The notes under the pieces: model-generated
What the model was told of the DNA's origin: nothing
Database searches by the model: none
Seen by the model: the letters and a program-made list of their open reading frames with translations, nothing else
Position numbers and translations under genes: made by a program
In this document: in pieces, positions 23,995-27,945 of the stretch
How positions within the stretch are numbered: position 1 is the stretch's first letter
How the letters are laid out: each line of letters opens with the position of its first letter
Source: Biomaibacter acetigenes
GTDB lineage: Bacteria; Bacillota; Thermosediminibacteria; Thermosediminibacterales; Tepidanaerobacteraceae
DNA length: 64,000 nucleotides
Direction of reading: 5' to 3'
Assembly: GCF_003691585.1 (NCBI RefSeq)
Contig: NZ_CP033169.1
Location: forward strand, 1,364,001-1,428,000

Positions 23995-25047
23995 ATGCTG
24001 GATTTTGAGGTTGATCTGGAACAATTCGCTAACATAAAAGTTATTGGAATAGGTGGTGGAGGCAACAATGCCATCAACCGCATGATAGATTCTGGGCTTA
24101 AGGGTGTGGAATTTATATCGGTTAACACCGATGCCCAGGCATTGTATCTATCTAAAGCGGATAAAAAAATACAGATAGGAGAGAAGCTCACCAAGGGCCT
24201 GGGAGCGGGAGCTAATCCGGAAATCGGCAAAAAGGCTGCAGAAGAAAGTAAAAATGAAATTGAAGAGGTCTTAAAAGGTGCCGATATGATTTTCGTCACT
24301 GCCGGTATGGGAGGAGGTACCGGTACCGGGGCGGCGCCGGTGATAGCTGAGATTTCAAAAAATCTTGGAATCCTGACTGTGGGAGTTGTAACAAAACCCT
24401 TTGCATTCGAAGGCAAGAAACGTATGAGCAATGCGGAGTTGGGAATTACCAATATTAAGAATAGCGTGGATACCTTAATAACCATCCCCAATGATAGGCT
24501 GCTGTCCATAGCCGAAAAAAAGACATCGATGATCGATGCTTTCAGGATGGCAGATGATGTGTTGAGACAGGGCGTTCAGGGCATTTCGGACTTGATTGCG
24601 GTGCCGGGCCTTATAAATCTTGACTTTGCCGATGTGAGGACCATCATGATGGGCACGGGATTGGCACACATGGGTATAGGAAAAGGGACCGGCGAAAACA
24701 GAGCTGTGGAAGCCGCAAAGCAGGCCATCTCCAGTCCCTTGCTGGAAACTTCCATAGAAGGGGCCAAAGGAGTGCTGCTAAACATAACCGGAGGGCCAAA
24801 CCTGGGATTACTGGAAGTAAATGAGGCAGCAGAACTTATTTCTTCTGCGGCTGACCCCGAAGCTAATATTATTTTCGGGGCGGTTATAGATGAAAAATTG
24901 CAGGATGAAATAAGAATTACCGTCATAGCGACAGGATTTGAACAGTTTAAAGAAAAATCCATAGAAATGGAAGAATTTGAAGTAGGTCCCTTCGCCGACG
25001 AAGACCTGGATATACCGGCATTTCTGCGGAGGAACCGCAAAAAATAA
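23995..25047 (+). CDS. ftsZ: Cell division protein FtsZ
   Basis: Tubulin-like GTPase that forms the Z-ring. The GTP-binding loops are clear: [15 protein letters not shown] near residue 16 and the tubulin signature [10 protein letters not shown] near residues 103-112. The C-terminal tail carries the short conserved peptide DIPAFLRR that binds FtsA and other partners; the linker before it is short, for a total of 350 residues. It ends the dcw cluster and is followed by a terminator at 25072-25098. Confidence 0.98.
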
Positions 25048-25071: not shown

Positions 25072-25098
25072 AAAAGCGCAAAATCAGCGCTTTTTTTT
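25072..25098 (+). terminator. Rho-independent terminator after ftsZ
   Basis: Stem AAAAGCGC (25072-25079) / GCGCTTTT with a 7-base loop, running into nine T residues. It closes the dcw cluster before spoIIGA. Confidence 0.85.
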
Positions 25099-25214: not shown

Positions 25215-26117
25215 ATGGTCATATATTTGGATATGGTATTTTTAATAAACCTGCTGATGAATTTTTTGATTCTGTTGTTTGTGGCGATTGTTCTAAATCT
25301 AAAAAAAAATTTCTTCAGAATCTTTTTGGGAGCGGCAGCGGGATGTATATTTCTGCTTTCCATTGTGTTGCCGCATTTTCCGGTTTTTCAAAGCCTTCCC
25401 TTTAAAATAGCCCTGTCGGCGGCAATGATATTGGTGAGTTTTCAACCACATAGTTTTAAGGATTTCATAAAAATTTTGGGTTTTTTTTATCTGATTTCCT
25501 TTATGGTGGGTGGAGGAGCCTTTGCGCTTTTTTACTTTTATAATTTAAAAGATACTTTTTTGAACAGTATGCTTTTAATAAATAATATTTCAGTACCATG
25601 GTGGATATTACTCGTTTCTTCTTTTATGCTGTTTTTATTTTTTAAGCTCCTCTGGCCTCTTGTTTACCGTATGCTTTCAAAAGATACACTGCTGGTGCCG
25701 ATGACCGTTACCTTTGATGAAAAGAGCCTGGAAATCAAGGCACTGATTGATACCGGCAATAACCTGCATGACCCTATATCGGACTTTCCTGTAGTCATTG
25801 TAGAGTTTGAGGCAGTTAAAGACCTTTTCAGCACCGATTTACAGGCCGCATTGATGAAGGGAGCCGAAGAAAACCTTCAGTATATGGGAGAACTTATTTC
25901 GGGATCCAAATGGGCCACTAGATTTAGAGTAATTCCTTTTGAAAGCATAGGAAAAAGCAAGGGTCTTATGATTGGTTTCAAACCCGATATGATTACCGTA
26001 ATTTTTAACAATAAAATCCTGGAAATAAAAGATGCAATTCTGGGTATTTACCAGAGGATTCTATCCCCCGATGGAACATATAGGGCTTTGTTAAATCCGG
26101 ATTTATTAAATGAATAA
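25215..26117 (+). CDS. spoIIGA: Sigma-E processing peptidase SpoIIGA
   Basis: Membrane aspartic protease that cleaves pro-SigE in the mother cell. The N-terminal half has about five membrane segments ([20 protein letters not shown] onward); the C-terminal half carries the aspartic protease-like motif [11 protein letters not shown], whose aspartate is the catalytic residue in B. subtilis SpoIIGA. ATG 25215 follows GGAGGA by 4 bases; the frame opens 12 bases earlier in the ribosome binding site. About 300 residues, normal. It is followed by sigE with a small overlap of reading frames. No exact Spo0A box was found in the 116 bases upstream. Confidence 0.95.
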
Positions 26118-26139: not shown

Positions 26140-26865
26140 ATGTTTAAATTTAAAAAAATAAATTTAAAACTGATTATTGTTAGGCTGCTAAAACAACTCG
26201 GTATATATAAAAAGTCTCTCATTTATTACATCGGCGGAACGGAAGCGCTGCCGCCGCCGCTCAGCGGCGAAGAAGAAATTTTTCTGCTCAATAAGCTTGT
26301 CATGGGCGATATGGGAGTAAAAAGTGTCCTGATTGAGCGGAACCTCCGGCTTGTGGTTTATATAGCAAAGAAATTCGAGAACACAGGGGTGGGTATAGAA
26401 GATCTGGTCTCCATTGGAACCATTGGCCTTATAAAAGCCATAAATACCTTTGATCCAAACAAGAAAATCAAACTGGCCACCTATGCCTCGAAGTGCATAG
26501 AGAATGAAATTTTGATGTACCTGAGAAGGAACAACAAGACAAGAGTCGAGGTTTCCTTTGATGAACCCCTCAACATTGACTGGGATGGGAATGAACTCTT
26601 GCTGTCCGATATTCTCGGCACTGATAATGACATGATATATAAATGTATAGAGGAAGAAGTGGATAAAGAATTGCTGGATGCCGCAATAAAGCGGCTTTCA
26701 AAGAGGGAAAGATGTATTATCAAACTTCGTTTCGGTTTGAATGACGGCGTGGAAAAAACTCAAAAAGAAGTGGCTGACCTGCTGGGTATTTCTCAATCTT
26801 ACATCTCACGCCTGGAAAAAAGAATAATTAAAAGGCTGAAAAAAGAAATGGTGAGAATGATGTAA
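26140..26865 (+). CDS. sigE: RNA polymerase sporulation sigma factor SigE
   Basis: Early mother-cell sigma factor, made as an inactive precursor. The pro-sequence is the basic, hydrophobic N-terminus, with the processing region before [14 protein letters not shown]. Region 2 has [22 protein letters not shown], and the C-terminal region 4 helix-turn-helix has [25 protein letters not shown] 26140 has GGAGGG 6 bases upstream; an earlier in-frame ATG at 26110 overlaps spoIIGA and lacks such a site. About 241 residues. Its processing enzyme SpoIIGA is encoded directly upstream. Confidence 0.95.
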
Positions 26866-26879
26866 TTAAATAGAAGCAT

Positions 26880-26908
26880 GTATAAAAACCTCCCCCGCTG
26901 GCAAGACT
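26880..26908 (+). promoter_or_regulatory. SigF-type promoter of sigG
   Basis: GTATA (26880-26884), 15 bases, then GGCAAGACT (26900-26908). This fits the SigF consensus GYATA-N15-GGNNANANT at every fixed position. Transcription should start near 26914-26916. In B. subtilis sigG (spoIIIG) is transcribed by SigF in the forespore. Confidence 0.8.
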
Positions 26909-26943
26909 TTAAATGATAGTTTCAGGAAAACGGGGGGAGGTTT
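26885..26943 (+). promoter_or_regulatory. Hairpin sequestering the sigG ribosome binding site
   Basis: AAACCTCCCCC (26886-26896) is the exact reverse complement of GGGGGAGGTTT (26933-26943), which contains the whole Shine-Dalgarno sequence of sigG and ends at its ATG (26944). The left arm lies inside the spacer of the SigF promoter, so only transcripts entering from spoIIGA-sigE would contain both arms. Transcripts initiated by SigF would lack the left arm and leave the ribosome binding site free. Confidence 0.82.
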
Positions 26944-27717
26944 ATGATTTTAAACAAGGTTGAAATATGCGGAGTCAATACTTCAAAGCTCCCGGTGCTT
27001 TCCAACAGCAAGATGAAAGAACTCTTTTTGCTTTTGAAGAAGGGCGATAAAGAAGCCAGGGAAAAGTTGATAAATGGCAATCTGCGCCTTGTCTTAAGTG
27101 TGATACAAAGGTTCAATAACCGCGGTGAATATGTGGATGACCTTTTCCAGGTAGGCTGTATAGGCCTGATGAAGGCCATTGATAATTTCGATTTAAATCA
27201 AAATGTCAAGTTTTCAACCTATGCCGTTCCCATGATAATAGGGGAGATAAGAAGATATTTGCGGGACAATAACCCAATAAGGGTGAGCCGTTCACTGAGA
27301 GATGTGGCATACAAAGCCCTACAGGTAAGAGATGTGCTTGTCAATAAAAACTCAAGGGAGCCGTCCATTAATGAAATCGCCTCGGAGATGAATGTACCAC
27401 GAGAGGAAATAGTTTTTGCCCTGGATGCCATACAGGAGCCTATTTCTCTCTTCGAACCAATATATCATGACGGTGGAGACCCGATTTTTGTAATGGACCA
27501 GATAAGCGATGAAAAAAATCAGGATGAAAACTGGCTTCAGGGTATTTCCATTAAGGAGGCCATGCAGAAACTCAATGAAAGAGAAAAACGCATATTAAAC
27601 CTCAGGTTTTTCGAGGGCAAGACCCAGATGGAAGTAGCGCAGGAGATTGGTATATCCCAGGCTCAGGTATCCAGACTTGAAAAGGCTGCGTTAAAGCATA
27701 TGAGGAAATATATATGA
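26944..27717 (+). CDS. sigG: RNA polymerase sporulation sigma factor SigG
   Basis: Late forespore sigma factor of 257 residues. The N-terminal segment NKVEICGVNTSKLPVL is the characteristic SigG start, containing the region linked to anti-sigma factor control in B. subtilis. Region 2 shows NLRLVLSVIQRFNNRGEYVDDLFQ, region 3 follows NPIRVSRSLRDVAYKA, and region 4 has TQMEVAQEIGISQAQVSRLEK. Its expression appears controlled by a SigF promoter and a hairpin over the ribosome binding site directly upstream. Gene order spoIIGA-sigE-sigG is the standard arrangement in Clostridia and Bacilli. Confidence 0.96.
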   Translation: MILNKVEICGVNTSKLPVLSNSKMKELFLLLKKGDKEAREKLINGNLRLVLSVIQRFNNRGEYVDDLFQVGCIGLMKAIDNFDLNQNVKFSTYAVPMIIGEIRRYLRDNNPIRVSRSLRDVAYKALQVRDVLVNKNSREPSINEIASEMNVPREEIVFALDAIQEPISLFEPIYHDGGDPIFVMDQISDEKNQDENWLQGISIKEAMQKLNEREKRILNLRFFEGKTQMEVAQEIGISQAQVSRLEKAALKHMRKYI

Positions 27718-27749
27718 TTGACCAAAAGTATATCTATGAGGTGGGGAAA

Positions 27750-27914
27750 ATGCTTAAAACTATAGAAAAATATATAGTAATAATTATAGCAGCATTTGTC
27801 ATATTTAACTTTTACTTTGCCCCGAGAAGCGTGGTGGCATATAACACCAGGAACCTGACATCGATGAGTCAAACGGTCCAGGAAGATATATTGAAGGTTG
27901 CTCAGGAAAAATAA
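27750..27914 (+). CDS. Small membrane-anchored or secreted protein of unknown function
   Basis: A 54-residue open frame starting at ATG 27750, with GAGGTGGGG 5-6 bases upstream. The frame also opens at 27714, overlapping the sigG stop, but that start lacks a ribosome binding site. The N-terminus has two lysines and a single hydrophobic stretch (YIVIIIAAFVIFNFYFA), followed by a short polar tail. I do not recognise a family. The tight position after sigG and before a strong terminator suggests it is cotranscribed with sigG and acts in the forespore, which is inference. A chance frame cannot be excluded. Confidence 0.6.
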   Translation: MLKTIEKYIVIIIAAFVIFNFYFAPRSVVAYNTRNLTSMSQTVQEDILKVAQEK

Positions 27915-27916
27915 AA

Positions 27917-27945
27917 AAGGCCTTGAAAAAAGGCCTTATTTTTTT
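27917..27945 (+). terminator. Rho-independent terminator after the sigG unit
   Basis: Perfect 8-bp stem AAGGCCTT / AAGGCCTT with loop GAAAA (27917-27937), then ATTTTTTT. It begins 2 bases after the small protein's stop codon. Confidence 0.93.

Follow-up and report, generated by a model that had tools for sequence, protein, structure and literature searches.

A predicted transcript-origin filter at sigG: a promoter of Biomaibacter acetigenes that would double as half of an RNA hairpin over the sigG ribosome binding site

The stretch of DNA analysed here (the window, 64 kb from Biomaibacter acetigenes) contains, in this order, ftsZ, spoIIGA, sigE, sigG and a small ORF, followed by a terminator-like hairpin. 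All these genes except the small ORF were identified by NCBIfam equivalog models scoring above their cut-offs: ftsZ (23995-25047), spoIIGA (25215-26117, forward strand; TIGR02854, 231 bits), sigE (26140-26865, forward strand; TIGR02835, 414 bits) and sigG (26944-27717, forward strand; TIGR02850, 511.5 bits for a cut-off of 457), the last being the only match above the TIGR02850 cut-off in the genome. A terminator scan of the window revealed a terminator-like site at 25072-25094, before spoIIGA, the first gene of the operon upstream of sigG, and the hairpin at 27917-27937 (forward strand), which closes the spoIIGA-sigE-sigG-small ORF unit; it found none between sigE and sigG. The sigG gene, which starts with the ATG at 26944, lies directly 3' of spoIIGA-sigE and in the same direction, 78 nt beyond the sigE stop codon and with no terminator in between, which is the layout of a B. 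subtilis-type filter.

The small ORF right after sigG (27714-27914, probable start at 27750) encodes one hydrophobic segment and carries the conserved motif [KR]S[VI]VAYNT[KR]NL. It has no match in Pfam or NCBIfam, and most genomes of the order, as well as the locus L025, have it in this position. The gene may be co-transcribed with sigG and encode an as yet unnamed membrane protein of the forespore.

The gap between sigE and sigG holds a promoter of the sigF/sigG type, with a -35 element GTATA at 26880-26884 and a -10 element GGCAAGACT at 26900-26908 (both on the forward strand), separated by a spacer of 15 nt. Its score is 15.5, the 99th percentile of shuffled sequences being 13.5. The pattern GNATA-N15-GGNAANANT matches the genome 22 times and its reversed control 12 times, so that the promoter call rests on the conserved position of the element in relatives and not on its rarity. 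An ORF with a Shine-Dalgarno sequence (SD) follows only 3 of these matches, one of them at sigG, and the other two present no difference in SD-opening cost between long and short RNAs. Transcription is predicted to start at 26914-26918 on the forward strand, with 26916 as the best estimate and a resulting leader of 28 nt; the register used counts 16 nt from the first G of the -10 element to +1. The original prediction had placed the start at about 26914.

Two arms of 11 nt, complementary at 11 of 11 positions and separated by 36 nt, frame this promoter and the start of sigG. The left arm (26886-26896, forward strand; AAACCTCCCCC), which acts as an anti-SD, is located wholly within the promoter spacer. 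The right arm (26933-26943, forward strand; GGGGGAGGTTT) contains the whole SD, GGGGGAGG, and its last base adjoins the ATG. The original prediction had described exactly this arrangement, namely an 11-bp perfect inverted repeat burying the complete sigG SD up to the ATG, with its left arm between the -35 and -10 elements of a promoter at 26880-26908, and it is confirmed on each of these points. The sigE stop codon is 20 nt upstream of the left arm, and a terminating ribosome would therefore leave the stem closed.

The consequences of this geometry for translation were evaluated by computing the cost of opening the SD, as equilibrium predictions at standard salt that ignore co-transcriptional folding and ribosomes. 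This cost is 11.9 kcal/mol on a read-through RNA and 2.4 kcal/mol on the promoter-initiated RNA. The 46 other gene starts measured in the window all stay below the first value, with a median of 3.3 and a maximum of 8.4 kcal/mol, and it is not reached when the upstream part is shuffled (0 of 40). When the 5' end of the RNA is displaced, the cost passes from 13.6 at 26886 to 8.5 at 26890, 3.6 at 26893 and 2.4 from 26896 onwards, thereby collapsing as the end moves past 26893, and the in silico replacement of the five C of the left arm (26892-26896) by GGGGG lowers it to 2.1. At 68 C the long and short RNAs give 9.2 and 0.5, respectively, so that the difference would outlast thermophilic growth. 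The hairpin thus covers the SD while its left arm lies upstream of the predicted promoter-initiated 5' end. As a positive control we used the locus L249, which we take to be of the B. subtilis type, its SigG being identical to the B. subtilis query sequence: the opening cost is 12.4 for the long and 2.6 for the short RNA, with the left arm in a promoter spacer of 14 nt and the SD covered by the right arm. At this same locus the 16-nt register reproduces the published 30-nt leader (PMC5942855).

The arrangement is common to the whole order. Among the 22 genomes searched, sigG was found in 19, and all 19 loci share the same plan: a -35 element at the same position, a 15-nt spacer containing the anti-SD arm, a -10 element and an SD in the opposite arm. 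The sigE-sigG gap measures 73-80 nt in the 18 loci where sigE is in view; the contig ends at the 19th. The two arms have changed together, by paired exchanges of C-G for T-A (ACCTCC/GGAGGT, ACTTCC/GGAAGT, CTCCTCCT/AGGAGGAG) and with some G-U pairs. In an alignment-free swap test, in which each left arm is paired with the right arms of other species, the 15 distinct arm pairs have a native energy of -20.65 kcal/mol and a swapped energy of -18.64 kcal/mol, a difference attained in 0 of 20,000 permutations; with one representative for each of ten genera the values are -20.25 and -18.29 (p=0.0006), and shuffled left arms pair with an energy of -8.25. Both arms are thus kept by their pairing in relatives, the check that had been proposed for the hairpin. 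The conservation is not uniform: one relative (L017) displays a weak long/short difference only (5.4 vs 2.5), two pairs are lost in the genus g10, and a locus from another family of the class (L026) has a related, weaker version of the arrangement.

In one relative (L241, at the end of contig C73 of genome G006), a long imperfect palindrome replaces the sequence from about 30 nt 5' of the sigG -35 element and reaches the contig end. There sigE is not adjacent to sigG, and the hairpin and promoter are intact. Judged from its sequence, the palindrome looks like the end of an insertion element located between sigE and sigG.

The mechanism we propose, and which we regard as probably correct, is a transcript-origin filter in which the anti-SD arm embedded in the promoter blocks the translation of sigG on read-through RNA and spares the promoter-initiated RNA. 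The sigG promoter would double as the anti-Shine-Dalgarno half of an RNA hairpin. An RNA polymerase reading through from spoIIGA-sigE would copy the promoter spacer into RNA, and this copy would pair with the sigG SD and prevent ribosome entry. Read-through RNA, which we infer to be made in the predivisional cell and in the mother cell, would then yield little SigG. In the forespore, the polymerase carrying sigF, and then sigG, would start 3' of the left arm, near 26916, so that the hairpin could not form and the SD would be free; the expected result is a difference in translation in vivo according to the origin of the transcript. The geometry, the energetics and the covariation all argue for the filter, which the original prediction had put forward in this form. 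It had further spoken of confining SigG synthesis to the forespore; the filter itself is supported, and the word "confining" exceeds the evidence, since other layers of control are known to act on SigG, among them sigF control and anti-sigma factors. By analogy with B. subtilis, where sigG is also damped by the small hairpin and by further layers, the filter may account for only a minor part of sigG control.

The idea of such a filter is already in the literature, where according to passages of Mearls 2018 (PMC5942855) it was proposed in 1988 for B. subtilis. These passages credit Masuda 1988 and Sun 1991 with a large sigG hairpin of more than 20 bp that blocks read-through transcripts and cannot form in those initiated at PsigG, and state that sigG expression does not require the read-through transcript. 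They also describe a small hairpin of 5 bp, inside the promoter-initiated mRNA, which damps all sigG mRNA 2-4 fold, and a survey of spacing and of this small leader hairpin in 13 Clostridia; no survey of the read-through hairpin is described in them (PMC5942855). A 2008 study of C. acetobutylicum (PMC2530871) presents the early B. subtilis sigG transcript as an untranslated sigE read-through; for C. acetobutylicum itself, it cites three sigE-sigG transcripts. The original prediction had invoked a B. subtilis leader hairpin limiting sigG translation as its precedent; that hairpin exists, but it is the small 5-bp one, and the real precedent is the large read-through hairpin (PMC5942855, in the passages cited).

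The Biomaibacter sigG hairpin therefore belongs to a class that had been proposed before, for B. subtilis. As in sigG (spoIIIG) of that species, the gene stands behind spoIIGA-sigE, and the hairpin would act against read-through RNA and be absent from PsigG transcripts. The two systems differ in their stem, an uninterrupted 11 bp here and, in the published passages, a long imperfect one of more than 20 bp in B. subtilis, in the sigE-sigG gap (78 nt here, about 140 nt by eye in the Bacillus locus), in the start codon (ATG here, GTG in the B. subtilis type) and in the spacer (15 nt here, 14 nt there). Furthermore, no hairpin is apparent in the short leader, unlike that of B. subtilis.

We then surveyed 227 sigG loci from many families, with a sigF/sigG-type promoter scored for almost all of them, and classified 192 with distinct regulatory sequences for which this was possible. 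A locus was called filter-like when the long/short difference was at least 4 kcal/mol and the SD was paired to at least 0.6 with the promoter region. This was the case for 34 of the 54 loci with sigE less than 100 nt upstream and no terminator (a group that includes the order of the window), for 8 of the 39 that lack a terminator but have a longer gap, for 4 of the 52 with a terminator and for 5 of the 47 without sigE upstream; a profile search for sigE in the loci lacking it brought nothing new, sigE being non-adjacent or the contig ending. In an earlier cut excluding the window's own order, 18 of 38 loci were filter-like at gaps below 100 nt and 11 of 89 at gaps of at least 100 nt. After collapse into 54 families, a dependence on the gap persists for promoter pairing (p=0.0008) and for the energy difference (p=0.013), and outside the families f1 and f2 the effect of the gap on the energy has p=0.05. 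The effect of the terminator has, at the level of loci, p of 1e-7 and 2e-6 for two detection settings; at the level of families (3/25 vs 10/29, p=0.065, with p from 0.04 to 0.29 depending on the measure) it is borderline and only suggestive. Because the thresholds were set after part of the data had been seen, the survey result is a supported hypothesis and not a proof.

At Desulfosporosinus-like loci the -10 region itself serves as the left arm, which is again 5' of the start site (swap test, p=0.05). Two other loci depart from the common pattern. In Carboxydocella thermautotrophica (L061) the ORF upstream of sigG is a co-directional transporter-like gene and not sigE, and the promoter-embedded anti-SD arm is among the strongest (17.2 vs 2.9). 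In Alicyclobacillus sacchari (L098) a very strong read-through hairpin covers the sigG SD (21.6 vs 5.0 kcal/mol), its left arm being 5' of the called promoter, a geometry unlike that of the other loci. Taken over the endospore formers, a tentative reading, to which we give slightly less than an even chance, is that sigG is insulated from its upstream gene either by an intrinsic terminator or by an anti-SD arm embedded in the spacer or the -10 region of its promoter, that the two devices are interchangeable, and that the arm arose or was rebuilt several times; the lineages concerned would be the Thermosediminibacterales, the Desulfosporosinus-like clades, the family f26, Defluviitalea, Bacillus and Carboxydocella.

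Could the hairpin act on transcription instead? It might be an attenuator or weak terminator halting the read-through polymerase before sigG, given its GC-rich stem followed by TTTATGATTTTA and the intrinsic terminators that fill the sigE-sigG gap in many other lineages. We consider this unlikely: the loop is of 36 nt, no uninterrupted U tract follows the stem, the T residues beside the G-rich arm are part of the stem and of the start codon, the terminator scan did not report the site, and in every lineage it is the SD that is paired, even in those whose left arm is formed by the -10 region. As a candidate class, the intrinsic terminator, with its GC stem, short loop and U tract, was rejected for this site. 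The repeat might also be a DNA operator for a protein controlling the sigG promoter, the RNA pairing being incidental; its left arm is indeed inside the promoter, and operator halves too would stay complementary. This is less probable still, as the arms are 36 nt apart with the second always on the SD, the compensatory drift, with G-U pairs or bulges at L005, L006, L017 and L012, spoils a DNA palindrome and not an RNA stem, and the left arm shifts to the -10 region in other clades while still facing the SD. A covariance-model search with Rfam 15 yielded nothing relevant, its sole hit, to SurA, lying elsewhere and below threshold (E 0.061).

The hairpin could finally dampen every sigG transcript, as the small 5-bp hairpin over the ribosome binding site keeps sigG translation low in B. 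subtilis according to the passages of Mearls 2018 (PMC5942855), and in both cases the sigG SD is hidden. This would hold only if transcription started upstream of 26890, and it has very little probability in our opinion: no left arm is present in the predicted promoter-initiated leader, whose fold is no more stable than those of its shuffles (z 0.02), whose SD core is unpaired in the minimum-energy fold and whose SD opens for 2.4 kcal/mol. Both the fold of the short leader and the place of the left arm speak against that type. The class of small sigG leader hairpins was accordingly set aside for this locus, where the hairpin is not contained within the predicted promoter-initiated leader. An 11-bp repeat is by itself unremarkable in 64 kb, the window holding four perfect ones with loops of 3-60 nt, of which that of sigG is by far the most GC-rich, and ten whole-window shuffles holding 0-4. 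Chance complementarity between a C-rich spacer and a G-rich SD is nevertheless hardly credible, since dinucleotide shuffling of the intergenic region (81 nt, 2000 shuffles) produced such a repeat once anywhere and never over the SD, and the same design is kept in 19 of 19 order loci with compensatory pairing across ten genera.

The transcript-origin filter has parallels outside sporulation. In the transposase genes of IS10 and IS50, the inverted end of the element folds over the SD in RNAs that come in from outside; these are mobile elements, protected against any outside transcription, unlike the sigG filter. The late genes of phage T4 (I-TevI, I-TevII, I-TevIII, segB, e and soc) follow the same logic as that proposed for sigG: their early read-through RNA carries an SD-hiding hairpin, and the late promoter gives a short, translated RNA without the sequence that the structure requires (PMC2988022), but the genes and late promoters are those of a phage and the sequences are unrelated.

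In conclusion, our observations carry what was proposed in 1988 for B. subtilis over to a distant order of Clostridia, rich in thermophiles, with evidence of covariation throughout that order. What is added here is the conservation of the pairing across this order and the recurrence of filter-like hairpins in several other lineages of spore formers. The single clean stem found here would lend itself to tests more easily than the long imperfect one of B. subtilis, and a comparative prediction is gained: in any sporulating species, sigG may be expected to have either a terminator or a promoter-embedded anti-SD arm in front of it. More generally, the locus illustrates a design rule by which a promoter can mark the transcripts that did not start at it.
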